From positions 1-53,499 of the forward strand of contig CALMWK010000164.1 in the NCBI GenBank assembly GCA_937873375.1: a stretch of 53,499 nucleotides of DNA. The letters are read 5' to 3'. Positions 19,410 to 53,499 of this stretch are shown piece after piece (position 1 is the first letter of the stretch; every line of letters begins with the position of its first letter). The notes under the pieces are model-generated. The model made no database searches, was not told the origin of the DNA, and saw only the letters and a program-made list of their open reading frames with translations. A program made the translations under genes and the position numbers. The stretch comes from Candidatus Bathyarchaeota archaeon (GTDB lineage: Archaea > Thermoproteota > Bathyarchaeia > Bathyarchaeales > Bathycorpusculaceae).

Positions 19410-22250
19410 TCAGTGGCGGATTCTTTTCCGGTACTCATATGCAGCCACAGTAATCACCGCGACCAAAAACAAAATGAACAGTATGTAAACGTACTCCATG
19501 GGTACGCCTGCAACTTGTTGCTCCTCAAACGGCGTAGGCGTTGGAAGCGTAACAGACGGCGAAGGCGACTCTGTTGGAGATGGTGAAGGCGTTTGCGGGC
19601 TGTTCACCGTCAAAACCACAGCGGAGCTCGTTGCGGAAGCGTAGTAGCTTTTGTCTGCCCGCCACTGTGCAGTCACTGCCCAAGTTCCCGTCTCGCTGGG
19701 CGTGAAAGTAAAAGTGAACGCACCCTTCGCGGAAGTGACCACTTGGATGCTGTTTGCGTTGCCGTCAGGCTTAACAAAAGTCAAAGTCACCGTTGCATTA
19801 GATTTTCCGGGTACAAGTTGACCAAAACCAGTCACCAGTTCACTTGAAACAACGGCTGTATTGGCTAACCCAAGGGTTAAGCTACTGGTTAAGGCGGGGT
19901 AGTCGGCTAGGCAGTAAACGTTCCAGTCGTTGTTGCCAACGTACACTCTTCCCTCGTAAATGGTTGCAGCAGACCAACTGTTGGAGCCTGTGGTGAAGAA
20001 ACTGAGTTTTTCGCCGCTGGTGGCGTTGAGAACAAAGATGTGGCGTTGGTCAGTTACAACGTACAATTTTTCGTCGGCGTAAGAAGGCGAAACGTACAGT
20101 TCATCGCCCAAGTAAGCCTTCCAGATGCTACTGCCGTTTTTTGCGTCAACGCAAACTATGGAGAATTTGTCAACCAAAAAGAGCCTGCCGCTGTTGTAGA
20201 CGGTGGAGCAGAGTATGAACTCTTCTGAAGCATTGTTGCTATACGTCCATGCGGTGCTGCCAGTGACGGCGTTAATCCCGTAGTATGTTCCTGCGTTTGA
20301 GGAAACAAAGACCATGCCGTCGGCTACTGTGGGAGAGGCATGCATGTCAGTGCCGCCCATGAAACCTATATTGTAAGGAATCGTTTTTTCCCAGACGCGA
20401 GCGCCATCGTTGGCATCTAACTTGTAGAGAACCCCTGAAGATGGCTCCTGCGAAATAACGTAAACTGCGCCGTCAGCAACTGCCGCAGAGGATGTGATGT
20501 ATCCGCGGGTCTGGTACTTCCAGTTGACATCACCGTTGTTGGCGTTTAAGCAGTACAGGTTAGTGTCCAGCGACCCCACGTAAACCTTGTTCCCGACTAC
20601 TATGGGCGAGGAACGCAACATCACTGAAGCCGCAAAGTTGGCTGGGATGACGCCTCCCGCGTAGGTTTTCCATATGAGGCTGCCGTTGTAAGCGTTAAGA
20701 CAGTAAACGTAGCCGTCGTCGGTGCCCGTGTAAACTTTACCGTTCACCACGGCAGGTGAAGATAAGATGCGTTCTTGAGTTTGGAATTTCCAGATGAAAC
20801 TGCCATCTTGCGCGTTAACGGCGTAGATGTTTTTGTCAAAAGAACCAAAATAGGCAACACCATTTGCGATGCTGGGCGAAGAAACCACGGACCCCTCAGT
20901 GGCGAATTTCCAGCGCAAAACCAAGTTTGTGGGGCCAGATTGACCAGTCGCGGAGTGCGCGGGGTCGTGTCGCCACATGGACCATGCTGTGGTGCCTATA
21001 GCCCAAATTTGGTTAGCTGTGGAGTATTCTGACCCTGAGATTGTGTCAACCGCCGCGGTCACGTTGGCGGGAATCAAGTACAAGTTACCATATGCAATGG
21101 CAACGGATTCTCTGGGAGCAAACGCTTCGATGGGCAACTTCCACAAAACTTGTCCCGTGTAAGCGTCAAGGCAGGCAAACTCAGATGCACCATACTCTTC
21201 ACCATACGATACATCTTGACCAGTTGTGGCGTAAATCTTGCCATCAGCAACTGCGGCGTTCCCAGGGAACATTAAGGTGCCTGGACCTTTGTATTTCCAA
21301 ACTAAAGCGCCAGTGTCAGCGTCAATGGCATACAGGTTCCCGTCTTTGTTGGGTTCGTAAACCATGCCGTAAGCGGCTGCGGTTCCAGTGCAGAAGTAGC
21401 CGCCCTCGGTGCCAGGGTTATAAGTCCACAAGATTTCGCCATTGTCTGCGTTAAACGCGTAAAGCGTGTTGTCGTGGGTGCCGCCTCTGAAGAATTTGCC
21501 GTCGTAGTAGGTTCCTGAGAAAAGCATCGCGCCCATAGTGTTTGTGTCCCACAAAACCGCGCCTGTCTTCGCGTCCAATGCTACTTGGTGAGACTCAAAG
21601 GACCCTGGAAAAACTTTGCCGTCGCCGTACTGTATTCCTGAACCAACCAAACCGCTGCCCGAAACGTAGGTTTCCCAAACTAAGGTTGGCTGCTGCTGGG
21701 GGTTAGAGAAGTTCCACGCCTGAATGTACGAATCGGCTTTGATGTAGAACATTTTTTCTTCGGGGCTGTAAACGTTGTTGGTGAAAAGCGGTGAGGAAGA
21801 AGCCGAAAATTCAGCGCTAGTCCAGATAATGTCCCCCGTTTCAGGATTAAGGCAGCTGCTTCCAGCAACCATGTGCGTGTTGTCGATTTTGTAAACGGCT
21901 GGCCACGGTCCAATCGCGGGAAGAGTGGTGCTCCAGACGACGCCGCCTGTTTTTTCGTTTAGGGCGAAAACCGCGGTTTTTGTTGTCACATAAATTTTGC
22001 CGTTGAACGCGGAGACGTAGCTTTGTATGCCTGTTATGTTGGTTTTCCACATGATGTCGGGGGCTTCAGGGGCGGGTCCAGCTGAAAAGCGGCTGAAAGA
22101 TGAGTCGCCTTGCAGTTGGGGCCATTCGTACTGAAGCAGGTTGCTGTTGGTGGTTGGCGTTTCAGTCTGTCCGAAGCTTTGGAACAAGGTTATGCTTGAA
22201 GACATCAATAAAAGAGCTATCACGAACGTAGAAAGAAGTTTAGTTTTCAT
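19410..22250 (-). CDS. large PQQ-like beta-propeller surface protein
   Basis: 946 residues from ATG 22250. Signal peptide at 1-30. Two propellers are built of repeats of about 40 residues with the consensus GxVYhxxxDxxhYAhNAxxGxhhWKh. The first covers about 50-400, the second about 425-780 after a linker (SMWRHDPAHSATGQSG). An Ig-like domain (about 785-895), a Pro/Ser-rich stalk, and a C-terminal TM helix followed by YRKRIRH complete it. PQQ-like here names the fold; nothing suggests quinoprotein catalysis. Probably a surface scaffold or binding protein. A TATA box at 22332-22341 lies about 90 bases upstream. Confidence 0.85.
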   Translation of the reverse strand: MKTKLLSTFVIALLLMSSSITLFQSFGQTETPTTNSNLLQYEWPQLQGDSSFSRFSAGPAPEAPDIMWKTNITGIQSYVSAFNGKIYVTTKTAVFALNEKTGGVVWSTTLPAIGPWPAVYKIDNTHMVAGSSCLNPETGDIIWTSAEFSASSSPLFTNNVYSPEEKMFYIKADSYIQAWNFSNPQQQPTLVWETYVSGSGLVGSGIQYGDGKVFPGSFESHQVALDAKTGAVLWDTNTMGAMLFSGTYYDGKFFRGGTHDNTLYAFNADNGEILWTYNPGTEGGYFCTGTAAAYGMVYEPNKDGNLYAIDADTGALVWKYKGPGTLMFPGNAAVADGKIYATTGQDVSYGEEYGASEFACLDAYTGQVLWKLPIEAFAPRESVAIAYGNLYLIPANVTAAVDTISGSEYSTANQIWAIGTTAWSMWRHDPAHSATGQSGPTNLVLRWKFATEGSVVSSPSIANGVAYFGSFDKNIYAVNAQDGSFIWKFQTQERILSSPAVVNGKVYTGTDDGYVYCLNAYNGSLIWKTYAGGVIPANFAASVMLRSSPIVVGNKVYVGSLDTNLYCLNANNGDVNWKYQTRGYITSSAAVADGAVYVISQEPSSGVLYKLDANDGARVWEKTIPYNIGFMGGTDMHASPTVADGMVFVSSNAGTYYGINAVTGSTAWTYSNNASEEFILCSTVYNSGRLFLVDKFSIVCVDAKNGSSIWKAYLGDELYVSPSYADEKLYVVTDQRHIFVLNATSGEKLSFFTTGSNSWSAATIYEGRVYVGNNDWNVYCLADYPALTSSLTLGLANTAVVSSELVTGFGQLVPGKSNATVTLTFVKPDGNANSIQVVTSAKGAFTFTFTPSETGTWAVTAQWRADKSYYASATSSAVVLTVNSPQTPSPSPTESPSPSVTLPTPTPFEEQQVAGVPMEYVYILFILFLVAVITVAAYEYRKRIRH

Positions 22251-28737: not shown

Positions 28738-30111
28738 TTACTCCTGACGCAACATTCCTTTTGCTGTGAGGACGCTTTTTCGCAGGTCTAGTCTTGCTGG
28801 GCAAATGAATGTGCAGTGACCGCAGCCTGTGCAGTAGTCGGCGTGTAGTTTTGCTAGGGTGTCGAAGTCTTGTTTGTCAAGTGCTTGCTTGATGAGGATT
28901 GGGCTGAGGTTGTGGCAGCAAACGCGCATGCAGGCGCCGCATCTCATGCATTGGTATTCTTTGACTTTTTCAGCTGGGAATTGTTTGGCTTTGGGTAGTT
29001 TGGGTTCTTTCTTTTCGGTGCGGGGTTTGAGTTTGCCGATTTGGTCTAGCTTTGAAACGGTTAGGTTCATGATGATGAGTGCTAGTATGGAGCCGCCGAA
29101 GAAGTTCATGCCTGTTTGAATTAGTACGGTGAGTACGCCTAAGCCGACACCGAATATCAGTTGACCAGTGTAGGTGATTGGGGTGGTTGCGGGGTCAGTT
29201 GCCATGAAGAAGCCTAGGAAGATGGAGCTGCCGATGAAGACTTCGAAGAGGAGTCTGGTGGTCATGTCTGTGTCTGCGAATGCTACGGACATGAGTACGG
29301 ACATTATTGCTATGGAGGCGAAGTATGCGAGGGTGATTCTCCATTTTATGAATCTGCGTGCGACGATGAATAGTGCTATACCTGCGACTATGACAGCGAT
29401 GCTTGATGCTCCGCCTACCCAGCCGTGGAACTTTTCCACTATCATCAGGTAGGTTACGTCTGGGGGACTTGACATTAAAGCTGGGTTGGCATAGCAGCCT
29501 TGTAGGTAGCTGGAGAAGGAAGCCAGACCGTTACCGCCTACTGGTAGTATGCCTGCACCTATTGGGCCTGCCAATGCAGGTACGCCGAGCATACCTGTTT
29601 TGAGGTGGTCTACAGCGATGAACACTGCGTTAAAGAGCGGAAGCAAGACGAGCATTTTTGCTGCTGCGGCTGGGTTTACGAGTTTTCGTCCCATGAGTTT
29701 TTTGAACAGCACCATGCCGACTAGGGATATCAAAGCTACGTAGATGAAGGCTCCTGGGGCGACGACGGGTAGGCCGATTTCGGTATTCATTGAGGGCAGG
29801 CCGAGGCTGTATGAGAGGGTGACAATTAGACCGAAGACTGCTGCGGACATGAGGTTTAGTGGGCTGTCTGAGACGAGTTTGTAGAAGAGAGCGTCGATTC
29901 CTACTGCAACACCCACGGATATGAGGGCGCATAGGATTACGGTGAGGCCTAGGTTTAGGCTTGTTTCCCCTGTCATGAGGTTTGTGGGGGTGACTGGGTA
30001 CCACAAAATGGCGGATACGACGGTGATGGCGATAAGTGCGATGAGTGTGTAGAGCATTAGTTTGTCTTTTGTCATTGCCGAGTATTCTTTTGGTTTTGAC
30101 ATCTTTAACAT
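28738..30111 (-). CDS. RnfD/NqrB-like membrane protein fused to RnfC-like ferredoxin
   Basis: 457 residues; AAGGAG lies just before ATG 30111 (ATG 30102 is possible). Residues 1-365 carry about nine to ten TM helices with RnfD/NqrB marks: FHGWVGGASSIAVIVAGIALF, RRFIKWRITLAYF and the ATDPATTPITYTG motif. I do not find the usual SGATPL-type motif whose Thr binds FMN covalently; the aligned region reads NGLASFSS. Residues 386-440 are a two-cluster ferredoxin with C388, C391, C394, C398 and C427, C430, C433, C437, in the RnfC-type pattern ending CPARLDL. No rnfA, B, C, E or G is in the window. Probably membrane electron transfer between ferredoxin and an unknown partner. Confidence 0.88.
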   Translation of the reverse strand: MLKMSKPKEYSAMTKDKLMLYTLIALIAITVVSAILWYPVTPTNLMTGETSLNLGLTVILCALISVGVAVGIDALFYKLVSDSPLNLMSAAVFGLIVTLSYSLGLPSMNTEIGLPVVAPGAFIYVALISLVGMVLFKKLMGRKLVNPAAAAKMLVLLPLFNAVFIAVDHLKTGMLGVPALAGPIGAGILPVGGNGLASFSSYLQGCYANPALMSSPPDVTYLMIVEKFHGWVGGASSIAVIVAGIALFIVARRFIKWRITLAYFASIAIMSVLMSVAFADTDMTTRLLFEVFIGSSIFLGFFMATDPATTPITYTGQLIFGVGLGVLTVLIQTGMNFFGGSILALIIMNLTVSKLDQIGKLKPRTEKKEPKLPKAKQFPAEKVKEYQCMRCGACMRVCCHNLSPILIKQALDKQDFDTLAKLHADYCTGCGHCTFICPARLDLRKSVLTAKGMLRQE

Positions 30112-33579: not shown

Positions 33580-35022
33580 TTGGGACGTGGAGCTAACAGA
33601 AAAGAACCTGCGAGAAACCAAGAAACAGTTATCACTAATGGTAAATGGATTTGGGTGAATTTGCCTGCTCTTGAATATGAAGGCGTATGGTGGCTACCTG
33701 AAACACCCGACGAGAAAATATCAGGGAAGATTACCTACGACTACGGACAGAACCCCACGTTATCGCTAAACGGCATGTTTGGTGATAGCGAGGGCGAAGA
33801 ATTTTTTCCAATAATTTTGGGTGATTGTAAAGGAAAGAAGATTACCCTTGTTCGCTGTTTTACCTTAGGTACAAGCACTCTTAGTGTTAGAGGTATGGGA
33901 AGTTACCAATATAGTAATTTTGATGCTGGCTATCTTTGTGAAGGCGGGCACTTTCCTCGGAGAGAGGACATTAAATTTACACGTTTATCAGTGAAATATT
34001 CTCATCTCAGGGATTGGTTAGGTGGAAGGGTCTTTAACACCTCTAAAAATGAAGAAACCGAACAAGAGTATATTCTACGGGTTCCGAAAAATGTTCCAAA
34101 CGAATTTGTTGTTAATAACTATAGACTGACCATAAGAGGTGTAGTTACACGACAACATGACGGCTATAAGGACTCTTTCGGTAGAGATGCCTTGTTCATA
34201 GTTGAACCTTTTGAGCAAGAAAACTACGACAGCCTATTTCGCATGATTTACCATATGAAGAATTTCCTTTGGTTTGCTATTGGTGATGACATTTCAATTC
34301 TAAGCATAAAAGGTGAAGTATCAGGGGCACAGCCTTGGGAAAGGGTTAATATTCTTAGTGCCTACACGATGGGTGAAAAGCTTGCGGAGCAGCATCATGC
34401 ATATGCCGCTTATGGTTCACCAATTAAGTATAGTGAAATAGAAAAGCAGATGGTAAATATCTTTGGGAATTGGCTCAAAATTACTAACGAACTTGCGCCT
34501 GTCTATCAATTGTTTTTCGGGACCAAGGAACAAAAGCTTTACCCAGTTACTGAATTCCTTGGGCTATCGCAAGCGATAGAAGCTTACCACAGCCGAAGAT
34601 TTGACAATAGAATAGTCATTGACGAATTGTTTAATAGGAATATAGATGGGATTGACGCAATCGTAACTCGTTTTCCTCAACAGAATCAAACAGAGTTTAG
34701 GGGCAAAGTACAATACTGGAACAGAAAATCGCTTAGAAAAAGGACAAAAGAATTGTGTGCCCAGTTCCAAGCAATATTTAACGTATTCTTGGATGATGAA
34801 CAGGCATTTATCTCAAAGTTCGTTGACACAAGAAACTACTATACTCACTATGACCCTACTGCACAAAACCATGTCGATGATAAGGAACTGATGTTTTTAA
34901 CAGAAAAAGTTCGATTTATGGTGATAGCTCTTCTTCTTAAAGAGTTGGGACTTGATGATGGACAAGCAGACATAACTATGCGAATATATGCCAGCCGTGG
35001 GATAAGAGCAATTTACAGCTAA
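33580..35022 (+). CDS. apeA: ApeA-like HEPN anti-phage protein
   Basis: 480 residues from TTG 33580. The N-terminal half (about 20-200) reads like the ApeA N-terminal domain: YEGVWWLPETPDEKISGKI, LSLNGMFG, IILGDCKGKKITLVRC, and LCEGGHF before LRDWLGGRVF. The C-terminal helical part contains the HEPN RNase motif RNYYTH (R418-H423, Rx4H). ApeA proteins of bacteria act alone as abortive-infection ribonucleases against phage; here the target would be an archaeal virus or plasmid. The gene is AT-rich and sits in an accessory stretch with a remnant gene, a toxin-antitoxin pair and repeats. The start codon is uncertain, as no strong ribosome site is visible. Confidence 0.8.
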   Translation: MGRGANRKEPARNQETVITNGKWIWVNLPALEYEGVWWLPETPDEKISGKITYDYGQNPTLSLNGMFGDSEGEEFFPIILGDCKGKKITLVRCFTLGTSTLSVRGMGSYQYSNFDAGYLCEGGHFPRREDIKFTRLSVKYSHLRDWLGGRVFNTSKNEETEQEYILRVPKNVPNEFVVNNYRLTIRGVVTRQHDGYKDSFGRDALFIVEPFEQENYDSLFRMIYHMKNFLWFAIGDDISILSIKGEVSGAQPWERVNILSAYTMGEKLAEQHHAYAAYGSPIKYSEIEKQMVNIFGNWLKITNELAPVYQLFFGTKEQKLYPVTEFLGLSQAIEAYHSRRFDNRIVIDELFNRNIDGIDAIVTRFPQQNQTEFRGKVQYWNRKSLRKRTKELCAQFQAIFNVFLDDEQAFISKFVDTRNYYTHYDPTAQNHVDDKELMFLTEKVRFMVIALLLKELGLDDGQADITMRIYASRGIRAIYS

Positions 35023-40920: not shown

Positions 40921-42255
40921 TTATATTATTTTCCTAGAACCTCTTCCAGGTTTCAAATGATGAGCAGATGAAGCGCCATTTGCCATTCGGGCTTTTTCCT
41001 CTGAAACATGAAGCATATCCAGCAGCTCATGTTGATTCGTCACAAATATGGCGCCTAAACTTTTCAACTCGTCAAACAGGGCTTTGGCTTTTCCCTGAGT
41101 GAAATCTCTTGTTTCTATGGGCACTTCGTCGATGATGTACGTTGGTGTTCCCCGCTTCAGAGCCTCTACAGCAGCTTCCAAATTCTGCAGGTTACCAAAA
41201 CCAAACGGAACCGAAGTCACCACAACTAAGCTTGCTTTACGTATCATCTCTAAGTTGGCTTTTTGGGCTTTTTCAGTTACAGTAGAAAATGGTGGTTCAG
41301 TGGCTACAGGTATTTTCAGAAACTCGGCAGTTGCAAAGTCAGTATCTAACACGTTAAGAACCCCAGCAGTCACATTGTAACCTGAATCCGTCAAAATTTT
41401 CATAAGAGTGCTTCCAGTTCCAGCCCCACAAATCAAATGAACTGACAGAGTCCTTTGCTGTTGGTCTTTAGGCTTAGAAATCGGAATAACATAGGGCAAA
41501 TCAGTAACAGGATGCTTGTTAACTATAACGTCAATTCCGAAAACGTTCTTGATGCTCTCACTCGTTAACGTTTCTGCTGCTTTTCCCGCTGCCACAATTT
41601 TCCCATCTTTCAGCAAGATAACAGAGTCACAGTAACGAGCAGCCAAATTAAAATCGTGAAAAACACCCACAATCAATAATTTCTTATCAATACACAACTG
41701 CTTAAGAAGGTCCATTATCTCCAGTTGATTGCTTATGTCTAAGTGGCTGGTAGGTTCATCAAGCAACAAAATTTTTGGCTGCTGAGTCAGAGCCCGAGCA
41801 ATAATAACACGTTGCCTTTCACCACCACTCAGCTCAGTAACTAACCTGTCAGCAAAACGCCAAGTTCCAGTGTACTCCATAGCTTGCCTAGCGATTGCCA
41901 AATCATTCTCGCTTTCACTTTGGAATCTAGAAAGATGCGGCGAACGACCCATCAAAACTATTTGTAGCGCAGTAAAACTAAACGCTATGGCGCTATCCTG
42001 TGGAACTACAGCCATGTTTCTGGCGACTTCGCGAGTCTTCATTTTGTAAACGTCAGCATCATTGAGGAGAATCGCGCCTTTACGCGGTTTCAGTACCCTG
42101 CTTATACTCTTAAGTAACGTTGTTTTTCCAGAACCGTTGGGACCCAAAATTCCCAAAAAAGTGCCAGTTTTAACGGAAAAACGAACATCCTCCAGAATCT
42201 TAACAGATTCGTAGAAGCAATCCACGCCATCAATCGATAAATCAACCATATTCAA
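40921..42255 (-). CDS. btuD: corrinoid ABC transporter ATPase with C-terminal extra domain
   Basis: 444 residues, well above the ~260 usual for BtuD/FecE ATPases. Walker A GPNGSGKTT at 38-46, signature LSGGERQR at 142-149, Walker B LLLDEP at 163-168, H-loop HDFN. Residues about 265-444 form a second alpha/beta domain opening with HLICGAGTGSTLM, a Gly-rich loop, and containing ASLVVVTSVPFG. It may bind a nucleotide or the imported corrinoid. It pairs with the permease at 42259 (3-base gap). Iron-siderophore transport is an alternative for this family, but the cob genes downstream favour corrinoids. Confidence 0.88.
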   Translation of the reverse strand: MNMVDLSIDGVDCFYESVKILEDVRFSVKTGTFLGILGPNGSGKTTLLKSISRVLKPRKGAILLNDADVYKMKTREVARNMAVVPQDSAIAFSFTALQIVLMGRSPHLSRFQSESENDLAIARQAMEYTGTWRFADRLVTELSGGERQRVIIARALTQQPKILLLDEPTSHLDISNQLEIMDLLKQLCIDKKLLIVGVFHDFNLAARYCDSVILLKDGKIVAAGKAAETLTSESIKNVFGIDVIVNKHPVTDLPYVIPISKPKDQQQRTLSVHLICGAGTGSTLMKILTDSGYNVTAGVLNVLDTDFATAEFLKIPVATEPPFSTVTEKAQKANLEMIRKASLVVVTSVPFGFGNLQNLEAAVEALKRGTPTYIIDEVPIETRDFTQGKAKALFDELKSLGAIFVTNQHELLDMLHVSEEKARMANGASSAHHLKPGRGSRKII

Positions 42256-42258
42256 GCC

Positions 42259-43347
42259 TCAAAGCGCCTCTACTCTTTTCTTTCTACGCAAAAGGAACAA
42301 GAAGAAAACAACACCAGTTACAGCAGTTATCACGCCAACAGGAACTTCTTGGGGTGAAGCAGGAGAAGTCAACATTCGGGTCAAGCCATCACAGAGAACA
42401 AGGAAAGAAGCACCAAGAAACACTGAGGAAGGTATCAAAATTCGATGGTCGGGTCCCACCAAGAGCCTAGCTAAATGGGGAACCATCAAACCGATGAAGC
42501 CTATTGCCCCGCTTATCGCAACTGCGGCGCCAGCCAGAAGGGCGCCCACCATCATAAGAAGCAGTTTTACACGTTCCAAGTTGATACCTAAATGTTGAGC
42601 TTGGTCCTCACCTAGAGTAAGCAGGTTCAAGTCGCGTGAATAAAAATAGGCAACAATTATGCCAAAAATGATGAAAGGCAGAATACTCAGCAGCCCCATC
42701 CATGTGGTACGTGTTGAGCTTAAACTGCCTATCAGCCAGAATGTCAAGGGTCCGAGTCTGTCGCCTGCGATTGTCTGCAAATAAGCTACAATCGCTAATT
42801 CAAAAATGCTCACAGCAATTCCTGAGAGCAACAAGGTTGTTATGGGTACCCGTGAACCTACTCTGGAAATGAAATAGACCACAAGTACAGAGATCATGCA
42901 GCCGATAAAAGCGAAGATTGGTATAGTGAGGAGCCCGAATGTTGAGACGCCAACTCCGAGAACTATCGCAAGTGCAGCTCCTAGCGAGGCGGCTGACGAA
43001 GCGCTTGTAGTGTAAGGGTCCGCCATCGGATTTCTGAATAAGCCTTGGAATATTGTACCTGAAGCCGCTAGAGCTGCTCCAACTAGAGCACCGCACAAAA
43101 TTCGTGGAAACCGAACTAGCATTATTATGGGTTCTTTGTCAATTTGGAATTGTGTAAGATGTACAGAATCACCAAGAAAGGGTATATTCTTGAGGAGTAT
43201 GTTCACGATGTCCTGAAAAGGGATAGGGGTAAACCCCATGTTAAGGGAAACAAGAATAGTCACCATAAAGAGCAATACGAGTAGTAAAAAGTACATTTTC
43301 CATCTGGAAGTTCGTCTTGAACCAGTCGGGTTTCCGTTATTTACCAC
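42259..43347 (-). CDS. btuC: corrinoid ABC transporter permease (BtuC/FecCD)
   Basis: 362 residues from GTG/ATG at 43347. About ten TM helices. FecCD-type motifs: PRILCGALVGAALAASGTIFQGLFRNPMADPY (quoted in parts: PRILCGALVGA, GLFRNPMADPY), ATPase-coupling GEDQAQHLGI, and GAIGFIGLMVPHLARLL. It forms the dimeric membrane channel of a type II importer for cobamides. Between the binding protein upstream and the ATPase downstream, all same strand. Confidence 0.9.
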   Translation of the reverse strand: MVNNGNPTGSRRTSRWKMYFLLLVLLFMVTILVSLNMGFTPIPFQDIVNILLKNIPFLGDSVHLTQFQIDKEPIIMLVRFPRILCGALVGAALAASGTIFQGLFRNPMADPYTTSASSAASLGAALAIVLGVGVSTFGLLTIPIFAFIGCMISVLVVYFISRVGSRVPITTLLLSGIAVSIFELAIVAYLQTIAGDRLGPLTFWLIGSLSSTRTTWMGLLSILPFIIFGIIVAYFYSRDLNLLTLGEDQAQHLGINLERVKLLLMMVGALLAGAAVAISGAIGFIGLMVPHLARLLVGPDHRILIPSSVFLGASFLVLCDGLTRMLTSPASPQEVPVGVITAVTGVVFFLFLLRRKKRVEAL

Positions 43348-43390
43348 GCAATTTTCCCCAAGTTTGATTAATAAAAAAGGAAGGGGATAT

Positions 43391-44428
43391 TTATGATGTG
43401 CCGTTGTAGGGTCCGAAGATTTCAGGGTGAATTATCTTTGCCAGAATCTCAAGCGAATCAACTTGCCGTGGACCAGGTTCATCAATGATGTCTCCGCTAA
43501 CTGTGTACATTTTGTTGTTTGCTACCGCGCTTATGCTGCTCCAGCCAGGTCTGTTTGCGACAGTTGTGTAGTTGCCCCAGAAGGATTCTATACCCATTTG
43601 GGTGGGGAAGACCATTATGTCTGGGTTCTGTGTGATAATAGACTCTGAAGTGACAATGGGGTAATCGGTAGTTGCGTTTTCGAATATGTTTTGTCCTCCA
43701 GCGAGCTTTATCACTTCGTCAACGAATGTTCCTTTGCCAACGCTCATGTAGGGGTCGCTCCAGATTTCATGATACACTGTGGGTTTTGTTGTTGCAGTAC
43801 TTACACCGTTGACCACTGCGTCAATTCTTATTTGCAAAGCATTAACTGCTGCTTGGGCTTCCGCATCGTGTCCGGTTGCCTTGCCAACTGTAAGCATATT
43901 TTGCAGGATACCATTTAGACCAGTGGGATTCAAAGTTAAGACGTTGTATCCAAGACCTCTAAGCTGGTCTGCTGCATCAAAGCTGCCTAGACTTGCGATG
44001 ATCAGGTCGGGGTTCAGAGCGACTATTGGTTCAATTGGAGGCTGATAGTAGTTGCCGATGCTTGACATGTTGCCGGCTTCGATCCATGCTGAGAAGTTGT
44101 AGGGGTAATTGTCATAGTCTGTTACGCCAACAACTTGGTTTCCTGCGCCGACAGCGAAGAGAACCTGTGTGTTAGCGGGAGCCAACGACACTACACGTTG
44201 GGGGTAGGCAGTGAGAGTCAGACTATTATTGTAGTCGTCAATAAGCGTCACTGGCAAAGCAGACGGACTTGCAGACGGTGATGAGGTGGGTGTGGAAGTA
44301 GGGGTCGCAGTGGGTGATGGGCTGGGCGTTGCAGTGTTATTTTGTCCTTGATAGTACAAGGCAGTTCCTAACGAAGCCACCACAATTATTGCAATTGCAA
44401 CTATTGTAATTATGTATAGTCTTTTCAT
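43391..44428 (-). CDS. btuF: corrinoid-binding protein of ABC importer (BtuF-like)
   Basis: 345 residues from ATG 44428 with GAGTGA 8 bases upstream; GTG 44437 is in frame. An N-terminal TM anchor (about 3-24) and a Thr/Ser/Pro stalk (about 30-60) are followed by a periplasmic-binding fold of the BtuF/FhuD class: QRVVSLAPANTQVLFAVGAG, the long connecting helix, and GGQNIFENA near residue 245. The anchor replaces a bacterial signal peptide, as usual in archaea. A palindromic operator lies at its transcription start (44451-44465), so the whole seven-gene operon is probably regulated there. Confidence 0.88.
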   Translation of the reverse strand: MKRLYIITIVAIAIIVVASLGTALYYQGQNNTATPSPSPTATPTSTPTSSPSASPSALPVTLIDDYNNSLTLTAYPQRVVSLAPANTQVLFAVGAGNQVVGVTDYDNYPYNFSAWIEAGNMSSIGNYYQPPIEPIVALNPDLIIASLGSFDAADQLRGLGYNVLTLNPTGLNGILQNMLTVGKATGHDAEAQAAVNALQIRIDAVVNGVSTATTKPTVYHEIWSDPYMSVGKGTFVDEVIKLAGGQNIFENATTDYPIVTSESIITQNPDIMVFPTQMGIESFWGNYTTVANRPGWSSISAVANNKMYTVSGDIIDEPGPRQVDSLEILAKIIHPEIFGPYNGTS

Positions 44429-44450
44429 TTTTTTCACTCTTTTTTAGTTA

Positions 44451-45870: not shown

Positions 45871-46242
45871 TCAACTTTTCGACTGTTTGTAGGATAGCCC
45901 AGTAAAAACTGCTACTGTTTTGTCTTCTTTACGGACGGTTATGCTGTACAGCCCAAACGTTTTTCCCTCAGACACCTTCACTGCCTCAGCGGTTAACGTG
46001 TCCCCTTCCAGAGTGGGTTTCAGAAAGTTAATGCTCACCTGCACCGCAACCGCCACCTTATCACCAGAATTTGCTGCCTCCGCAAAAGCGCAGTCTGCCA
46101 AAGAGAAAATTACCCCACCATGTGTAACGCCTACAAAATTCGTGTGCTGTTTGGTGATTTTCAGGCTCATTTTTGCGTAGCCATCTTTCACTTCAACGAC
46201 TTGAACGCCCAAAAGCTCTCTAAAACTGTCTTCACCTTTCAT
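45871..46242 (-). CDS. PaaI-type hotdog thioesterase
   Basis: 123 residues from ATG 46242, overlapping the LivM gene's stop by 4 bases. Hotdog fold with HTNFVGVTHGGVIFSLADCAFAEAAN: the HGG motif and catalytic Asp are as in PaaI/phenylacetyl-CoA thioesterases. It would hydrolyse aryl- or acyl-CoA. Downstream of phenylacetate-CoA ligase and IorAB in the same operon, it fits release of free arylacetates or protection of the CoA pool. Confidence 0.88.
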   Translation of the reverse strand: MKGEDSFRELLGVQVVEVKDGYAKMSLKITKQHTNFVGVTHGGVIFSLADCAFAEAANSGDKVAVAVQVSINFLKPTLEGDTLTAEAVKVSEGKTFGLYSITVRKEDKTVAVFTGLSYKQSKS

Positions 46243-47282
46243 GGTTTAACCTCTTTCTTATCACGTCGTAAGTAAGCGTAGGTTTTGTTAATGAGTGAGG
46301 TTATTCCTTTTGGCGCAAAAATAACCACTAAGAGCAGAATTACGCCAAGCATCATCATGCGTATCGGAGGACCCACATTACTCACCGCAGGAAACAGTGG
46401 ACCCATCAGGCCTTGCAGAAATGGGTCAATGCGAGGCAGGTAAGCGTCAATGGAGACAATTATAACGGAACCGATGAGGGGTCCTTCTATGGTGCCTAAT
46501 CCGCCGATGACCGCTATCATAAGCGGCAAAAACGAGTAGTAGGGGTCAAAGATTGAAACTTGAATGTAACGAATCGACTCAGCGTATAATCCTCCAGCTA
46601 TGCCTGCGAAAAAGGTACTCAACACAAACGCTATCAGACGGTATTTGCCAGTGTTTATCCCTGTCATTTTGGCTTCAAGCTCATTTTCACGTATGGCTTT
46701 GAAAGCCAAGCCCAGTTTGGACTTCATCACCAAATAAATCACAAGTATTGAAGTGGCGGCTATGGCAAATGTGAAGTAGTAAAAGGGAATCCCACGGGGA
46801 ACAATCAACGGCGTGGCAAAACCCATTATGCCGCCTATCACGGAGTCAAATTGGCTGATAAGCGTCAAAGCGATAACTGAGAAGCCGAAGGTAACCATGG
46901 CGAGGAACCAAGCTTTCAATCGGACACATGCAAGACCAATTAGAAGACCGATACCTGCTGAGAATAAACCGCCTACAAAAAGCCCAACTATGGGAGGCAC
47001 CCCTAACTTTATTGCAAGCAAAGCGGAAGCGAAACCACCTATGCCCAAAAACGCCGCGTGCCCAAGCGAACCCTGACCCGAGTAGGCAAGCAGGTTCCAG
47101 CTTGAAGCGTAAATGGCAAAAATAATCATAGGCGCTAAGACTTCACCAATTACATACTCGCTCCCTATGAACATGGGAAGAACTGCTATAAACGCTAAGC
47201 CTAACATGATAAAATAGAACCGCTTTGAGTGCAATAGACTTGTGAATTTTTTGGAGTTTAACAAACCCGTAAGCTGCGTCAT
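46239..47282 (-). CDS. livM: branched-chain-type amino acid ABC permease LivM
   Basis: 347 residues from ATG 47282, preferred over GTG 47303 because AAGGTGA lies 8 bases before it and the longer form would overlap livH. About ten TM helices. LivM marks: GQGSLGHAAFLGIGGFASALLA at the N-terminal third, the ATPase-coupling AIRENELEAKMTGINTGKYRLIAFVLS, and GGLGTIEGPLIGSVIIV. It forms the permease heterodimer with LivH. The transporter's two ATPases (LivG, LivF) are not in the window. Confidence 0.92.
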   Translation of the reverse strand: MTQLTGLLNSKKFTSLLHSKRFYFIMLGLAFIAVLPMFIGSEYVIGEVLAPMIIFAIYASSWNLLAYSGQGSLGHAAFLGIGGFASALLAIKLGVPPIVGLFVGGLFSAGIGLLIGLACVRLKAWFLAMVTFGFSVIALTLISQFDSVIGGIMGFATPLIVPRGIPFYYFTFAIAATSILVIYLVMKSKLGLAFKAIRENELEAKMTGINTGKYRLIAFVLSTFFAGIAGGLYAESIRYIQVSIFDPYYSFLPLMIAVIGGLGTIEGPLIGSVIIVSIDAYLPRIDPFLQGLMGPLFPAVSNVGPPIRMMMLGVILLLVVIFAPKGITSLINKTYAYLRRDKKEVKP

Positions 47283-47286
47283 CCTG

Positions 47287-48159
47287 TTAGTCACCTTTTC
47301 CACCGAATATTCCTGTAGGCTTAATCACCAGCACAACTATGAGCAACACAAAAGCAATTGCGTCAGGCCAAATTCCACCAAGCACGTAACCTGCTGTATT
47401 TTCAGCTATACCATAGAGCAGACCACCCACGACTGCGCCAGGTATGCTTCCTAAGCCACCCAGTATGATTATGGCAAATGCTTTAATTGTGGGCAATGCA
47501 CCCAAGGCGGGGCTGAAAGGAAAGATTATGCCGTAAAGTGCCCCTGCGGCTCCTGCCAAGGCGGCGCCCAAGGCGAAAGTGAAAATGTAAACTTTTTCGA
47601 TGTTAATGCCCATAAGCTGGGTGGCGTCGCTTTTTTGGCTGGTTGCCCGCATGGCTAAGCCGATTTTGGTTTTTTTCATCAGAAATATAATGGATAAAAG
47701 AATTACAATAACAATCCCCATGGCTGCTATCCTGTCGTAGCTTATGGATATTCCACCTAAAGAAAGAAGACCATGTAAAGGACTTGCTATTTGGGCGGAT
47801 TTGTTGCCCCACAAAAGCACAGCAGCATTTTCAAAAATGTAAATTAAGCCTAAGCTGACGAATATTTCGTTTAGTTTATCGGTTCCGAGAACTTTGCGGA
47901 AGGTAAACCGTTCAACGCCGAGCCCAATTAAAGCCACTCCACCCATTGCCACAAGAATGGATAGGTAAGCGTTTAGACCCAAAACAACGGATGCTGTGAA
48001 AGCGAGGTAGGCTCCAATCATTAGGAGTTGCCCGTGAGCGAAGTTTACTAGTTTCATTACGCCGAAGATTATGCTTAACCCTGCTGCTAACAGTATGTAA
48101 ATGCAGCCGTTCGCAACGCCCCAAAGCAAAGTTTCAGCTAGTCCAGACGGGGTAATCAT
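47287..48159 (-). CDS. livH: branched-chain-type amino acid ABC permease LivH
   Basis: 290 residues from ATG 48159. About eight TM helices. LivH marks: IFGVMKLVNFAHGQLLMIGAYLAF, the coupling loop MRATSQKSDATQLMGINIEKVY and GGLGSIPGAVVGGLLYGIAE. It is 4 bases from LivM. Together with the LivK-like protein it forms a HAAT-family importer. Given its IorAB and PaaK neighbours, aromatic amino acids or arylacetates are as likely substrates as branched-chain ones. Confidence 0.92.
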   Translation of the reverse strand: MITPSGLAETLLWGVANGCIYILLAAGLSIIFGVMKLVNFAHGQLLMIGAYLAFTASVVLGLNAYLSILVAMGGVALIGLGVERFTFRKVLGTDKLNEIFVSLGLIYIFENAAVLLWGNKSAQIASPLHGLLSLGGISISYDRIAAMGIVIVILLSIIFLMKKTKIGLAMRATSQKSDATQLMGINIEKVYIFTFALGAALAGAAGALYGIIFPFSPALGALPTIKAFAIIILGGLGSIPGAVVGGLLYGIAENTAGYVLGGIWPDAIAFVLLIVVLVIKPTGIFGGKGD

Positions 48160-48211
48160 GCAAGCTCAACCTCACCTATTTTCTCATGTTTACTATTTAA
48201 AATGTACCGAG

Positions 48212-48239
48212 AAAACAAAAAAAATAAAAAGAAAAAAGA
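48212..48239 (-). terminator. T-rich tract between livK and livH
   Basis: Minus-strand T runs of 6, 5 and 8 just after the livK stop. It may act as a partial terminator that lets the binding protein be made in excess over the permeases. Confidence 0.4.
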
Positions 48240-48254
48240 TTGTTGGCTGAAAGT

Positions 48255-49715
48255 TTATGGACTTCCAGGTTGGTAGCCCGTAGGCAGCACAAAGTCTGCT
48301 TGTTTGAGGGTGCCGATGCCAGGTACAGTTGCTGGATACACGATTTGTGGTCTTGCTTCTTGGAGAGTTGCGTTGTAGGTAAATTGTTCAACGAATGTTA
48401 TGGGTGCAATTTCGTGGTAGTTTGTGCTTGTGCTGAATTGTACGGTGCCTGTTTGAGTCATTATCAGCATTTGAGGTATGTTTATCTGTTCTATGGCGGT
48501 TCTGACTGCAGCTTTGTCTACGGTTCCTGCTTGCTCAATCGCGGCTTTGGCAATGAAGAAAGCATCGTATGTGTCAGCGCCCATCATGCCTGGAATCTTA
48601 CCGGCATTTGCGGCTTGATAATTTGTAACATAAGTCTCTATAGACTGCATGTAGAAGGGTGGTCCAGCGTATGGAGCAAATTTGGATTCCAGCAACACAC
48701 CGCCGCCATACTCGCCAAGAAGCGTGTACAACTGGGGGTCTTCGCAGCATTCAACAGCAATGTACACAGTGTTTAATCCAACGTCTTTTTGTCCTTCTCT
48801 GATTATTTCTGCAGTGTTTGCTATGAAGTCTACCACGTATACAGCGTCAGGCTTTGCGTCTTTGACAACTGTGAGGTCTGTTTGGAAGCTGGTGGCAGTT
48901 GTTTGGTAAGGTCTCTCAACGACAACTTCTACGGGCAGGTTGTTTGCTTGTATCAGGTTTTTAGTGTCAGCCAAAACGCCATTGCCAAAAGCATCATTGC
49001 GGTAAATGACTGCTAATCTGAGGGGTCTGGATGCGTCGAAGCCGTATGTGCTGTCAAGCAGAGGTTTCATAGTTTGGGCGAAGAAGTTAACCACTGTTTT
49101 GCTGTAGTCGGCAGTTGTTGTGCAGTAGTGGAACATGTAGCTCATGCCTTCAGCATCGTCATATCTTCGCGCATCATCTGCGGGTAATCCGCCGAAGTTG
49201 CCTTGTGGTCCTCGTCGGGTGACTAGGTTTGATGAGGCACCAGTTATGATGTAAGGAACGCGGTTTTCGATTGCTACAACTTGGTCTGCGAGGGTGCCTG
49301 CGCTTGTGTATCCGCCGATGAGAAGGTCAACGTTGTCTTCTGTTACTGCGCGGGTCACTGGACCCACTGTTTCGCCAGCTGTGTCCTTGCCAGTGTCTGC
49401 TATAACTAGTTCGATTGGAACTTTGGTGTTCCACGCGGCGACGTAGACGCCTCCGGCAGCGTTGATTTCTTCAACGGCTAGTTTAGCGGCGCGGTCCATG
49501 TCTTGGCCTTCAGCTATTTGGTAGCCTGCAACTAAGCCTATTTTGATGGGTCTTGCATCGGGTGATGGCGTACTGGTCGCGGATGCTGTAGGCGTTGAAG
49601 TTGGGCTGGGTGAAGGTGAGGTGGATGGTTGCTGAGTTAATTGCCAGGTTCCTACGCCTGCGGCGACAACAATGATTGCTATAGCGATAATCGCAACTAA
49701 CATTTTAGTTTGCAT
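48255..49715 (-). CDS. livK: ABC transporter substrate-binding protein (LivK family)
   Basis: 486 residues from ATG 49715, which has AAGGAGAT 5-12 bases upstream. TM anchor (about 6-24), a Ser/Thr/Pro stalk (about 28-56), then a type I periplasmic-binding fold: PIKIGLVAGY, AAKLAVEEINAAGGV, LLIGGYTSAGTLADQVV, and AVIYRNDAFGNGV. It captures the substrate outside the membrane for LivHM. The T-rich tract after it and the 50-base gap before it separate it slightly from the ior genes. Confidence 0.9.
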   Translation of the reverse strand: MQTKMLVAIIAIAIIVVAAGVGTWQLTQQPSTSPSPSPTSTPTASATSTPSPDARPIKIGLVAGYQIAEGQDMDRAAKLAVEEINAAGGVYVAAWNTKVPIELVIADTGKDTAGETVGPVTRAVTEDNVDLLIGGYTSAGTLADQVVAIENRVPYIITGASSNLVTRRGPQGNFGGLPADDARRYDDAEGMSYMFHYCTTTADYSKTVVNFFAQTMKPLLDSTYGFDASRPLRLAVIYRNDAFGNGVLADTKNLIQANNLPVEVVVERPYQTTATSFQTDLTVVKDAKPDAVYVVDFIANTAEIIREGQKDVGLNTVYIAVECCEDPQLYTLLGEYGGGVLLESKFAPYAGPPFYMQSIETYVTNYQAANAGKIPGMMGADTYDAFFIAKAAIEQAGTVDKAAVRTAIEQINIPQMLIMTQTGTVQFSTSTNYHEIAPITFVEQFTYNATLQEARPQIVYPATVPGIGTLKQADFVLPTGYQPGSP

Positions 49716-49765
49716 TCTTTTATCTCCTTTTTTTCCTTTGTATATCAAGCGAACTGTTAATAAAA

Positions 49766-50359
49766 TTAACTCAACAACACGCTTTCGCGTCCCAGTTCGA
49801 AGGCTTGCAGGTTCAGGTTGATGTATTTCTCTTTGAGTCGGCTTGCTATTGCCTGCTTGAAAGAATCTTGTTTGAGAGGGTTCTCTGGCAGAGCAGAAAC
49901 CGCCCCGAGGAGGACAGTGTTAACCACCAGGAGGTTGCCCAGCTTTTGGGCGATACCTATGCCGTCAATCTCGTGAACGTGAAGAGCCTTTTCCTTTATG
50001 AGGCTAATTAGTGCTTCAGGCTTCACAGGTTTAGCATTTCCTTGGGTTATGCTGTTGGGAGGGATGTATTTCGTGTTCACCAACACCGTTCCCTTAGCCT
50101 TAAGCATTGGCAAAGCTCTGGCGGTTTCAAGTATTTCGAAGCCAACTATTATGTCGCTTTTCCCCGTTTCAATTAAAGGAGATAAGACCTTGTCTCCGAT
50201 TCTTACATGAGCGCTTATTGAGCCGCCTCTCTGAGCCATCCCGTGAATTTCCGCTTTTGCCACATCGAAACCTTCAAGCAATGCGGCTTCGCAGAAAATG
50301 TCACTTAGAACAACTACACCTTGACCGCCTACGCCAGTGAAGATTAGGTCTAGTTTCAT
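49766..50359 (-). CDS. iorB: indolepyruvate:ferredoxin oxidoreductase beta subunit
   Basis: 197 residues from ATG 50359. Pyruvate-ferredoxin oxidoreductase gamma-type domain: FTGVGGQGVVVLSDIFCEAALLEG at the N-terminus, EIHGMAQRGGSISAHVRIG, and VLVNTKYIPP. With IorA it oxidises aryl pyruvates (from Trp, Phe, Tyr) to aryl-acetyl-CoA and reduces ferredoxin. Single-base spacing to iorA. Confidence 0.93.
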   Translation of the reverse strand: MKLDLIFTGVGGQGVVVLSDIFCEAALLEGFDVAKAEIHGMAQRGGSISAHVRIGDKVLSPLIETGKSDIIVGFEILETARALPMLKAKGTVLVNTKYIPPNSITQGNAKPVKPEALISLIKEKALHVHEIDGIGIAQKLGNLLVVNTVLLGAVSALPENPLKQDSFKQAIASRLKEKYINLNLQAFELGRESVLLS

Positions 50360-50360
50360 T

Positions 50361-52550
50361 TTATTCGGTGCTCCTTATCGCGTTGAAAGGACATAACGCC
50401 TCGCACACTCCACACCCCACACAAAGGGTAGCGTCAATCTCGGCGCGTTCAGACGTCAAAGAAATCGCGGGGCAACCAAAACTTGTCACGCATACACCGC
50501 AGGCATTGCATTTTTCGGTAATTTCTCGGGCGGGGTTCTTTGGAATCTTTAGAGGGCAGGGGCGCTCAGAAATAATCACTGAAGGACCGTTATAATCTAG
50601 AATTTCCTGTATAGTCTGTCTTGTGCCGTCGACATCGTATGGGTCGACAATTTTTACTTGTTCAATTCCAAGGCTTTTGGAGATTTCGTCAAGCTTCATC
50701 ATCTTGGCGTCGTCGCCCATGGCGTTTTTTCCAGAGCCTGGAGTGGGCTGGTGACCAGTCATGGCTACAATGCGATTGTCTAAGATGACTACGCAGACAT
50801 TAGCCTTGTTGTAGGCTATGTTCAGCAAACCAGGCATGCCACCGTGAAAGAAAGTGGAGTCACCTATCACGGCAAACACCTTGTCTTTAACGCCTGCATG
50901 CGCCATACCTGCAGCCTGAGAAATTCCCGCGCCCATACACAGACAGGTTTGCACCGTGTTCACAGGAGGCACAAAGCCCAAAGTATAGCAGCCAATGTCG
51001 CCTGTCACAATCTTATCGGTTGTTCTGCCCAAAAAGCTTAAGGCGCCTTCAGGACAGATTTCAACACACTTCGGCTCGCCGTTACAGGTATCACAAATTA
51101 TGGCTTTCCGCGTTGTTGGATGCAACGTGACAGCACCATACTCACAGGCTTCAATACACCAGCCGCAACCGTCACATTTGTCCGCATCCACCGTTATGGC
51201 TCCCGTCTCAGTTGATTGTGAAAGAGCATCTTCGGGGCAGGCAACAATACAAGGCGCATTTTTGCAGTCGCGACAAGTAATAGTCATGTTTAAGATTTGG
51301 TCAAGACGCACCGCACGAATTCTCGACTTTGAAGGATTGAAAACTTGCTCTTTCTCCCAAGAACACGCAAGCTCACAAATATCGCACCCCACACACTTTT
51401 GCGGGTTACAGCTCACAAACTGGTTCACAGTGTTTAAAGCGTAATAGAAAGCACGGTGTGGACAACCAGGGCACAAAACTGGAGGGCGAATAGGCAAACC
51501 TAAATTTTCCGGAAGCTGAACTTCTGCACATAATCCTATCTCAGAAAGGGCTGCTCTGATTGTGTCGGGGGTGAACTCTCCAATTTCTTCCAGCTTAAGC
51601 TTTTGTTTCCCCAAAACTTCAACGTCTAAGCCACGCAGATTATCCTCGATGTATGGTCTTAACTCTTCGACCACTATAATTTTTTCTAGTTTAGACGCAA
51701 ACTTCCTAACTAGTTCATGAGGGAAAGGGTACACAAACCCCAATTTTAGCCAAGAAAACTTTTCAGAGTCAAGTATAGACTTTGCGTGGTAGTAACCTAT
51801 GCCACTGCCTATTATGCCGATTGTCTTATGGTTATCATCCAAAACGTTATGCTTCGACGAATTAACGAGTTTTCCCGCCTCAGCCAATCTGCCCTTCAGT
51901 ATTCGGTGTTGCCTCATCGCGTTTGAAGGCACCATAACCCACTTTGAACCGTCCTTGTCAAACTCTGCTTTCCGAGCGAGCTTAAGAAATTCGCCAATCT
52001 TGACCCGCGCCTTTCCATGGGCAACACGGGTGGTCAAGCGAACAATTATTGGTAAGTTCAGTTTTTCACTTATCTCAAAGGCTTCCCGAGTCATCTCGTA
52101 CGCTTCTTGGGGGCTACCCGCATCCAGCAAGGGTATGTTAGAGTGAACAGAAAAATATCGCGTGTCCTGCTCGTTCTGGCTACTGTGCATGGCAGGGTCG
52201 TCACAAACCGCGATAACTAATCCGCCCAGAACACCCGTGTAAGCTAAAGTCATGGCGGCATCCGCAGCCACGTTTAACCCCACATGTTTCATGGAGACAA
52301 TAGACCGCACGCCAGCCATGGAAGCACCAGCAACCACCGCCATGGACACAATCTCGTTAACGCTCCATTCCGCGTAGATACCCAGCGGTTTTGCAACTTC
52401 AGCTATGGCTTCTAAAATCTCCGTTGAGGGAGTACCAGGGTAAGCAGCCGCAACTTTAATTCCTGCCTCCACAGCGCCCCGTGCAACTGCCTCGTCTCCG
52501 TTAAGCAGCATGAAACTGCCGGGTTTGTCAACTGCTATTTTTGAAGCCAT
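50361..52550 (-). CDS. iorA: indolepyruvate:ferredoxin oxidoreductase alpha with internal polyferredoxin
   Basis: 729 residues; family members are about 600-640. The N-terminal 350 residues and the TPP domain are ordinary: CPGCPHR at 361-366, VTGDIGCYTLG at 515-525, GDSTFFHGG at 563-571, and a C-terminal two-cluster ferredoxin (C681 to C720). Between CPGCPHR and VTGDIGC, normally some 25 residues, lies an added section of about 135 residues (377-511). It has 16 cysteines in four groups: 386/389/392/396, 426/429/434/438, 459/462/465/469, 486/489/495/499. This is the pattern of HycB/HybA/DmsB-type four-cluster ferredoxins. The enzyme would thus carry six [4Fe-4S] clusters. Confidence 0.93.
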   Translation of the reverse strand: MASKIAVDKPGSFMLLNGDEAVARGAVEAGIKVAAAYPGTPSTEILEAIAEVAKPLGIYAEWSVNEIVSMAVVAGASMAGVRSIVSMKHVGLNVAADAAMTLAYTGVLGGLVIAVCDDPAMHSSQNEQDTRYFSVHSNIPLLDAGSPQEAYEMTREAFEISEKLNLPIIVRLTTRVAHGKARVKIGEFLKLARKAEFDKDGSKWVMVPSNAMRQHRILKGRLAEAGKLVNSSKHNVLDDNHKTIGIIGSGIGYYHAKSILDSEKFSWLKLGFVYPFPHELVRKFASKLEKIIVVEELRPYIEDNLRGLDVEVLGKQKLKLEEIGEFTPDTIRAALSEIGLCAEVQLPENLGLPIRPPVLCPGCPHRAFYYALNTVNQFVSCNPQKCVGCDICELACSWEKEQVFNPSKSRIRAVRLDQILNMTITCRDCKNAPCIVACPEDALSQSTETGAITVDADKCDGCGWCIEACEYGAVTLHPTTRKAIICDTCNGEPKCVEICPEGALSFLGRTTDKIVTGDIGCYTLGFVPPVNTVQTCLCMGAGISQAAGMAHAGVKDKVFAVIGDSTFFHGGMPGLLNIAYNKANVCVVILDNRIVAMTGHQPTPGSGKNAMGDDAKMMKLDEISKSLGIEQVKIVDPYDVDGTRQTIQEILDYNGPSVIISERPCPLKIPKNPAREITEKCNACGVCVTSFGCPAISLTSERAEIDATLCVGCGVCEALCPFNAIRSTE

Positions 52551-52563
52551 CAGCTTTAATCCT

Positions 52564-53499
52564 TCAAGTTTTGCCTTTACGCTTGTCGAAAACGTGTTTG
52601 GCTTTTCCCTCGGTTCGAGGAATTTCGCCGTATTTTACGATTTCAAGTTCTGGGTGTAGCCCTGTTACTCCGCAGATTTTGCTTTGTATTTTGCCTGTGA
52701 GGGCTTTTAGGTCTAGTTGTTTGTTTTTGGATGCATCTTCTGTTAGTTCTACTTTGATTTTGAAGGTGTCTAGGGCGTCGGGTCTGTCGACGATTATGTG
52801 GTATTGTGATGCTAGTTCTGGGAAGCCCATTACGACGTATTCGATTTGTGAAGGAAACACGTTGACGCCTCGGATGATGAGCATGTCGTCGGATCTGCCG
52901 CTTACGCGTAGCATGCGTGAGTGGGTGCGTCCGCAGGGGCATTTGTCAGTTTGGATAATTGAGATGTCACGGGTTCGGTATCTTAAAACGGGTAAGGCAG
53001 TTTTTGAGAGAGCTGTGAAAACTAGTTCGCCTTTTTCGCCGTCGGGTAGAACTTCGCCTGTTTCGGGGTCTATGGTTTCGATTATGAAGTGGTCTTCCCA
53101 TATGTGTAAGCCTTTGCGTTCAGGGCACTCTATTGAGACGCCTGGACCGCACATTTCGGTTAAGCCGTAGACATCGAAGGCTTGGATGCCTAGGGTGTCT
53201 TGGATGCGTTCGCGGATTTTTTCTGACCATGGTTCTGCGCCGAAAAGCCCAATTTTTAGTTTTAGGTCTTTTTTGGGGTCAACGCCTTCGGTTACCATGG
53301 TTTCTGCGAGGTAGACTGCAAAACTAGGGGTGCAGCAGAGTATGGTGGCGCTTAGGTCTTTCATGAGTTTTATCTGTCTTTGTGTCATGCCTCCGCTTGC
53401 TGGGACGATGGCTGCGCCGAGCTTTTGGGCACCATAGTGGAAGCCTAATCCGCCAGTGAATAGGCCATAGCCGTAGGCGTTGTGCATTACGTCTGTTTT
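52564..53499 (-). CDS. paaK: phenylacetate-CoA ligase, 5' end outside window
   Basis: The frame runs off the window edge; the last 311 of about 430 residues are present. Adenylate-forming signature pieces: MHNAYGYGLFTGGLGFHYGAQKLG, VYGLTEMCGPGVSIEC, RYRTRDISII with CPCGRTHSRM, and GRSDDMLIIRGVNVFPSQIE; C-terminal lysine in RTEGKAKH. It makes aryl-acetyl-CoA from ATP, CoA and the acid, or in the reverse sense helps to conserve energy from Ior products. Its stop is 13 bases from the iorA start, so it is the first seen gene of the operon. Confidence 0.92.
   Translation of the reverse strand, partial: KTDVMHNAYGYGLFTGGLGFHYGAQKLGAAIVPASGGMTQRQIKLMKDLSATILCCTPSFAVYLAETMVTEGVDPKKDLKLKIGLFGAEPWSEKIRERIQDTLGIQAFDVYGLTEMCGPGVSIECPERKGLHIWEDHFIIETIDPETGEVLPDGEKGELVFTALSKTALPVLRYRTRDISIIQTDKCPCGRTHSRMLRVSGRSDDMLIIRGVNVFPSQIEYVVMGFPELASQYHIIVDRPDALDTFKIKVELTEDASKNKQLDLKALTGKIQSKICGVTGLHPELEIVKYGEIPRTEGKAKHVFDKRKGKT

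Follow-up and report, generated by a model that had tools for sequence, protein, structure and literature searches.

Small subunits of tungsten aldehyde oxidoreductases (WOR/AOR), such as WorS and AorA, are built around four groups of cysteines for four [4Fe-4S] clusters. In AorA, clusters FS1 and FS2 face the catalytic subunit, and FS3 and FS4 form the core of a filament (PMC10413684). HycB3 and HycB4 of the hydrogen-dependent CO2 reductase, and HycB of formate hydrogenlyase (7qv7, 7z0s), belong to the same four-cluster double-ferredoxin superfamily. For indolepyruvate:ferredoxin oxidoreductase (IOR), whose alpha subunit is IorA, the direction of the reaction has been read in two ways: an AMP-forming ligase encoded beside IOR in Bacteroides has been argued to suggest biosynthesis (PMC13285125), and a study of termite-gut Bathyarchaeia reads IOR as oxidative, assigning it in Bathy-6 genomes to the oxidation of amino acids (PMC7886697). 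Here we describe an IorA of uncultured Bathyarchaeia that holds a WorS/AorA-type domain in mid-chain. It naturally fuses two low-potential redox systems that are central to anaerobic archaea, and is fixed in one lineage. We found no description of a fusion of IorA with a four-cluster insert in the literature searched, and the words 'indolepyruvate' and 'Bathyarch' are absent from a tungsten-oxidoreductase classification of 2026. The architecture and the origin of the protein are almost certain.

The window, a 53,499-nt stretch of contig CALMWK010000164.1 from a Candidatus Bathyarchaeota archaeon, encodes the protein on its minus strand as an open reading frame of 729 residues (iorA, 50361..52550, −). 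Membership was decided by the curated cut-off of the NCBIfam equivalog TIGR03336, 650.9 bits; with 697.4 bits the protein is by profile a true IorA, and annotation today would read plain IorA. It comprises a POR_N domain (residues 25–186; 51993..52478, −; Pfam PF01855), a TPP-binding domain (residues 518–659; 50574..50999, −; Pfam PF02775), in which G563-D564-S565 and N592 are invariant alignment columns, and a C-terminal two-cluster ferredoxin with Fer4 matches (residues 675–729; 50364..50528, −), which is intact, its eight cysteines being conserved in at least 35 of 36 insert forms. CPGC (C360 and C363; 51462..51473, −), C521 of the GDIGC motif (50988..50990, −) and C665 (50556..50558, −) are invariant in 59 of 59 aligned proteins. 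By comparison with pyruvate:ferredoxin oxidoreductase (PFOR), we take these cysteines to be candidate ligands of the TPP-adjacent, proximal cluster, with C360 and C363 as ligands 1 and 2, C521 as ligand 3 and C665 as ligand 4.

The insert begins 13 residues past C363 and so sits between candidate ligands 2 and 3. The stretch separating CPGCPHR from GDIGC measures 150 residues in the window protein and in the insert-form orthologs matched by motif search, compared with 14–31 in insert-free IorA. When 36 insert forms were aligned with 23 insert-free proteins (n=59), the limits of the insert fell at residues 376–511 (51018..51425, −), with residues 386–504 essentially unaligned in the insert-free set. 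Its cysteines fall into four ordered groups, 386/389/392/396, 426/429/434/438, 459/462/465/469 and 486/489/495/499, which span a cluster-binding core from C386 to C499 (51054..51395, −); Cys381 precedes them. All 16, as well as Cys381, are cysteine in 36/36 insert orthologs and in 0/23 insert-free proteins, in a domain that otherwise diverges to 44–75% identity among orthologs. Of the 59 aligned proteins, the Pfam model Fer4_11 matches 36, exactly as many as there are insert forms. By the criterion that applies to WorS and AorA, the pattern for four [4Fe-4S] clusters is present and invariant, the clusters being predicted from sequence. The layout proposed by the sequence-only reading, about 135 extra residues with 16 ordered cysteines between the two motifs and a four-cluster module additional to the C-terminal ferredoxin, is borne out by the alignment and by the conservation of both cysteine sets. 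Cys586 behaves as Cys381 does: every one of the 36 insert forms has it, and insert-free IorA lacks it.

An assembly or frameshift artefact was rejected because the identical architecture recurs in dozens of independent genomes. A chance run of cysteines was likewise discarded, given the profile matches to four-cluster subunits; in phmmer searches against four-cluster subunits in the PDB, E-values reached 2.6e-30. One genome (G018, contamination 9%) carries a second iorA copy of 661 residues (L126:6839-8824, +), which has lost insert residues ~393–469 in frame and keeps three cysteines of group I together with group IV. This loss of about half of the insert could suggest a structural or regulatory relic that transfers no electrons, and the proposed function of the domain is itself read from sequence; the invariance of every cluster cysteine in 36/36 orthologs speaks against such a relic, which we regard as extremely improbable.

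To place the inserted domain among four-cluster proteins, a profile of seven insert sequences was compared with the PDB, where the best chains were 9mqx_E, 6x6u_B, 6x1o_B and 8c0z_C. The top five Foldseek matches came from these entries too, and every one of them is the small subunit of a tungsten aldehyde oxidoreductase. Folded alone, the insert reaches a pLDDT of 67, so that the fold matches stand on a moderate model, and sequence agrees with them. The HycB subunits named above score clearly below WorS in both sequence and fold, and HycB/CooF was therefore rejected as the nearest kind; the earlier label 'HycB/HybA/CooF type' had thus named the right superfamily in terms that were too general. 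Within genomes of the window's family, the nearest stand-alone relatives share 57–64% identity with the insert. Of 24 loci encoding such relatives, 23 directly adjoin an aldehyde oxidoreductase gene and the remaining one ends near a contig edge; two paralogs in the host genome itself (L002, L003) are likewise AOR-adjacent. Five further relatives (L004, L163–L166) are not AOR-adjacent. Four of these (L004, L163, L165, L166) are WorS-like four-cluster proteins of ~205 residues, whose genes adjoin a histone-deacetylase-like gene and another conserved gene. In the domain tree the insert forms a single group (support 99/99) and is set with the AOR-adjacent WorS, its exact sister being ambiguous among AOR-linked and solo groups. 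The best matches, the AOR-adjacent paralogs and the domain tree together make it nearly certain, at the level of sequence, that the donor was a WorS-like protein, of either the AOR-linked or the solo kind.

Of 257 genomes of the class, 41 carry insert-form IorA; 38 belong to the window's family and three to one genus of another family in the same order. In a 398-genome sample of the phylum no insert form was found outside the window's family, all 22 matches being in-family, and searches run without a positive control gave none in 23 and 398 genomes from two other phyla. Nine genomes of bacteria and archaea were inspected one at a time, and in these the IorA alignment splits exactly at the insert, at query residues ~373–379 and 510–516. 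Other members with the insert, which the sequence-only reading had proposed looking for, thus exist in two families of one archaeal order, and we found none outside that order; the prospect it had raised, that the insert might be common in characterised IorA proteins, was not borne out. Three genomes carry both an insert-form and an insert-free IorA. In the tree of the IorA core, the insert forms make up a single clade (100/100), whose neighbours are insert-free IorA of bacteria rather than the insert-free paralogs of Bathyarchaeia (98/98 branch), a placement to be read with caution owing to long branches. Both trees fit a single insertion event, into the loop that separates candidate ligands 2 and 3, in an ancestor shared by this group of Bathyarchaeia.

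The gene lies in an operon. Past the iorA stop by 1 nt is iorB, encoding the beta subunit (49766..50359, −), with a Pfam POR match of 133.8 bits and an NCBIfam IOR_beta score of 178.6 bits, under its cut-off of 205.8. Upstream of iorA by 13 nt is a gene for a PaaK-type, AMP-forming arylacetate-CoA ligase (52564..53499, −), which is cut by the contig end and whose truncated product matches TIGR02155 with 389 bits. The same operon encodes an ABC transporter of livK-livH-livM type (46239..49748, −), assigned by NCBIfam and conserved in many orthologous loci, and a PaaI-type hotdog thioesterase (45871..46242, −; TIGR02286, 121.3 bits, above cut-off). The order paaK-iorA-iorB is kept in 14/14 named insert-form loci. 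Most of the longer loci have LivG-LivF before it, LivK-LivH-LivM and PaaI after it, and a divergent ACT-domain gene upstream; in termite-gut Bathycorpusculum loci, just paaK-iorA-iorB is kept among the genes searched. A divergent gene for an ADP-forming acyl-CoA synthetase (ACD) adjoins the operon in some genomes. Elsewhere in the window are genes for a 946-residue protein with PQQ/BamB-like β-propeller domains (19410-22250, −), a 457-residue membrane protein of the NQR2/RnfD/RnfE family (28738-30111, −), a protein with an ApeA N-terminal domain and an ApeA-like HEPN part that resembles an abortive-infection defence gene (33580-35022, +), and a FecCD-type ABC transporter set of ATPase, permease and periplasmic binding protein (40921-44437, −).

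With what, then, might the inserted domain exchange electrons? No redox partner gene constantly linked to insert-form iorA was seen in the neighbourhoods examined, and an operon-encoded partner was rejected. The membrane complex that the sequence-only reading had suggested as a partner found no backing, since no gene for one was seen in the listed insert-form neighbourhoods. The kinship of the domain raises the thought that it still binds WorL, the catalytic subunit of tungsten AOR, so that arylpyruvate/aryl-CoA and aldehyde/acid chemistry would swap electrons directly. Consistent with this, the insert is WorS-like in sequence and fold, between residues 385 and 429 it keeps many of the positions that AOR-linked WorS proteins conserve, the host genome encodes AORs, one of which (C49) lacks an adjoining WorS gene, and in AorA it is FS1 and FS2 that face the catalytic subunit (PMC10413684). 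However, no AOR gene was matched near any insert-form iorA in the neighbourhoods examined, the same motif is retained in WorS-like proteins without an adjoining AOR, and the insert has lost several conserved WorS positions close to the termini and has no counterpart of the C-terminal tail of stand-alone WorS. Such docking seems unlikely to us. Its most far-reaching version, in which aldehyde oxidation by the docked WorL would drive carboxylation of arylacetyl-CoA, or the reverse, through one chain of clusters, is less likely again; if true, it would give two enzymes a direct electron bridge from TPP to tungsten.

The nearest solved relative in sequence and fold, WorS of the electron-bifurcating AOR (9mqx), suggests another partner, a NuoE/NuoF-like flavoprotein module that would link the insert to NAD(P) or to bifurcation, as it does for that WorS. 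One genome (G000) encodes a NuoE-NuoF-NuoG-like cluster, and NuoE/NuoF-like genes lie beyond the ACD gene next to the ior operon in two loci (L130 and L131). In the remaining neighbourhoods examined, though, no such genes were seen close to the operon, and NuoF-like proteins may serve other enzymes; we consider such a partner decidedly unlikely, on a par with the aldehyde-driven scheme.

The reaction might run in the carboxylating direction, as the sequence-only reading had ventured, for salvage of aryl acids, or in the oxidative one. Chorismate synthase and prephenate dehydratase are each encoded in 35/38 of the family genomes bearing the insert, against 20/53 of the others for each, a correlation that is confounded by shared ancestry. 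Because of the constant AMP-forming ligase, the argument made for Bacteroides (PMC13285125) and this correlation with biosynthesis genes, our analysis somewhat favours carboxylation. The earlier suggestion thus gains from the invariant linkage of PaaK with iorAB and from the Bacteroides argument, and the direction stays only a little better than evenly balanced: ACD near the operon in some genomes and the PaaI thioesterase within it are equally compatible with arylpyruvate oxidation. An ordinary fermentative IOR, in which the insert merely buffers electrons or improves contact with free ferredoxin, would fit these two genes, the intact C-terminal ferredoxin and the assignment of Bathy-6 IOR to amino acid oxidation (PMC7886697). 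It fits poorly with an AMP-forming ligase linked in every named locus, and with the occurrence of the insert form mainly alongside aromatic amino acid biosynthesis genes and of the insert-free form mainly without them. Taken as a whole, the fermentative reading appears improbable to us, about as much so as the docking of WorL.

The predicted model of the whole chain (pLDDT 87.4, pTM 0.82) has PFOR as its best structural match; the insert is weaker, with blocks of 53–83. The WorS positions that the insert has lost lie mostly near its termini, at the junctions with IorA, and few lie elsewhere (430, 432, 440). Together with the loss of the tail, these substitutions fit a domain that was re-fitted to a new host. 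We lean slightly towards a reading that combines this one-time insertion of a WorS/AorA-type domain with carboxylation, the four-cluster domain serving as an intramolecular wire to an external partner. The wire function itself we consider likely. A path for electrons would link TPP to the proximal cluster, this cluster to those of the insert, and these in turn to an external redox partner docked on the insert, and the C-terminal two-cluster ferredoxin would retain the usual ferredoxin route. PaaK would supply arylacetyl-CoA, and the wire would feed low-potential electrons to its carboxylation (arylacetyl-CoA + CO2 + 2 e- → arylpyruvate), probably often, for aromatic amino acid salvage. More generally, the insert points to a different electron partner or direction for this aryl-keto-acid/CoA-thioester enzyme. 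If functional, the wire would show a 2-oxoacid oxidoreductase rewired from the shared ferredoxin pool to a dedicated partner, and it would become testable in which direction IOR runs in acetogenic Bathyarchaeia.

Compared with known systems, the protein shares with IorA of the TIGR03336 kind the domain order, the TPP motif, the invariant cysteines, the C-terminal two-cluster ferredoxin and an IorB partner gene; it differs in the ~135-residue four-cluster domain between CPGC and GDIGC, which none of the 23 aligned insert-free IorA has. With WorS and AorA (9mqx, 6x1o, 6x6u, 8c0z) the insert shares the 16-cysteine pattern, the fold and the closest sequence matches, and its nearest stand-alone paralogs are AOR-adjacent. 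Unlike these proteins, it is an internal domain of another enzyme rather than a separate subunit, with neither a C-terminal tail nor a neighbouring AOR gene. An IorA with an inserted extra electron-transfer module also occurs in Chloroflexi, where both the module and the insertion point differ from the Bathyarchaeia form: in two open reading frames of 1114 and 1147 residues (L065:7989-11258, +, and L079:8001-11258, +), the inserted module is a GltD/AegA-like FAD/NAD(P) oxidoreductase, which follows the TPP domain and precedes the C-terminal ferredoxin.
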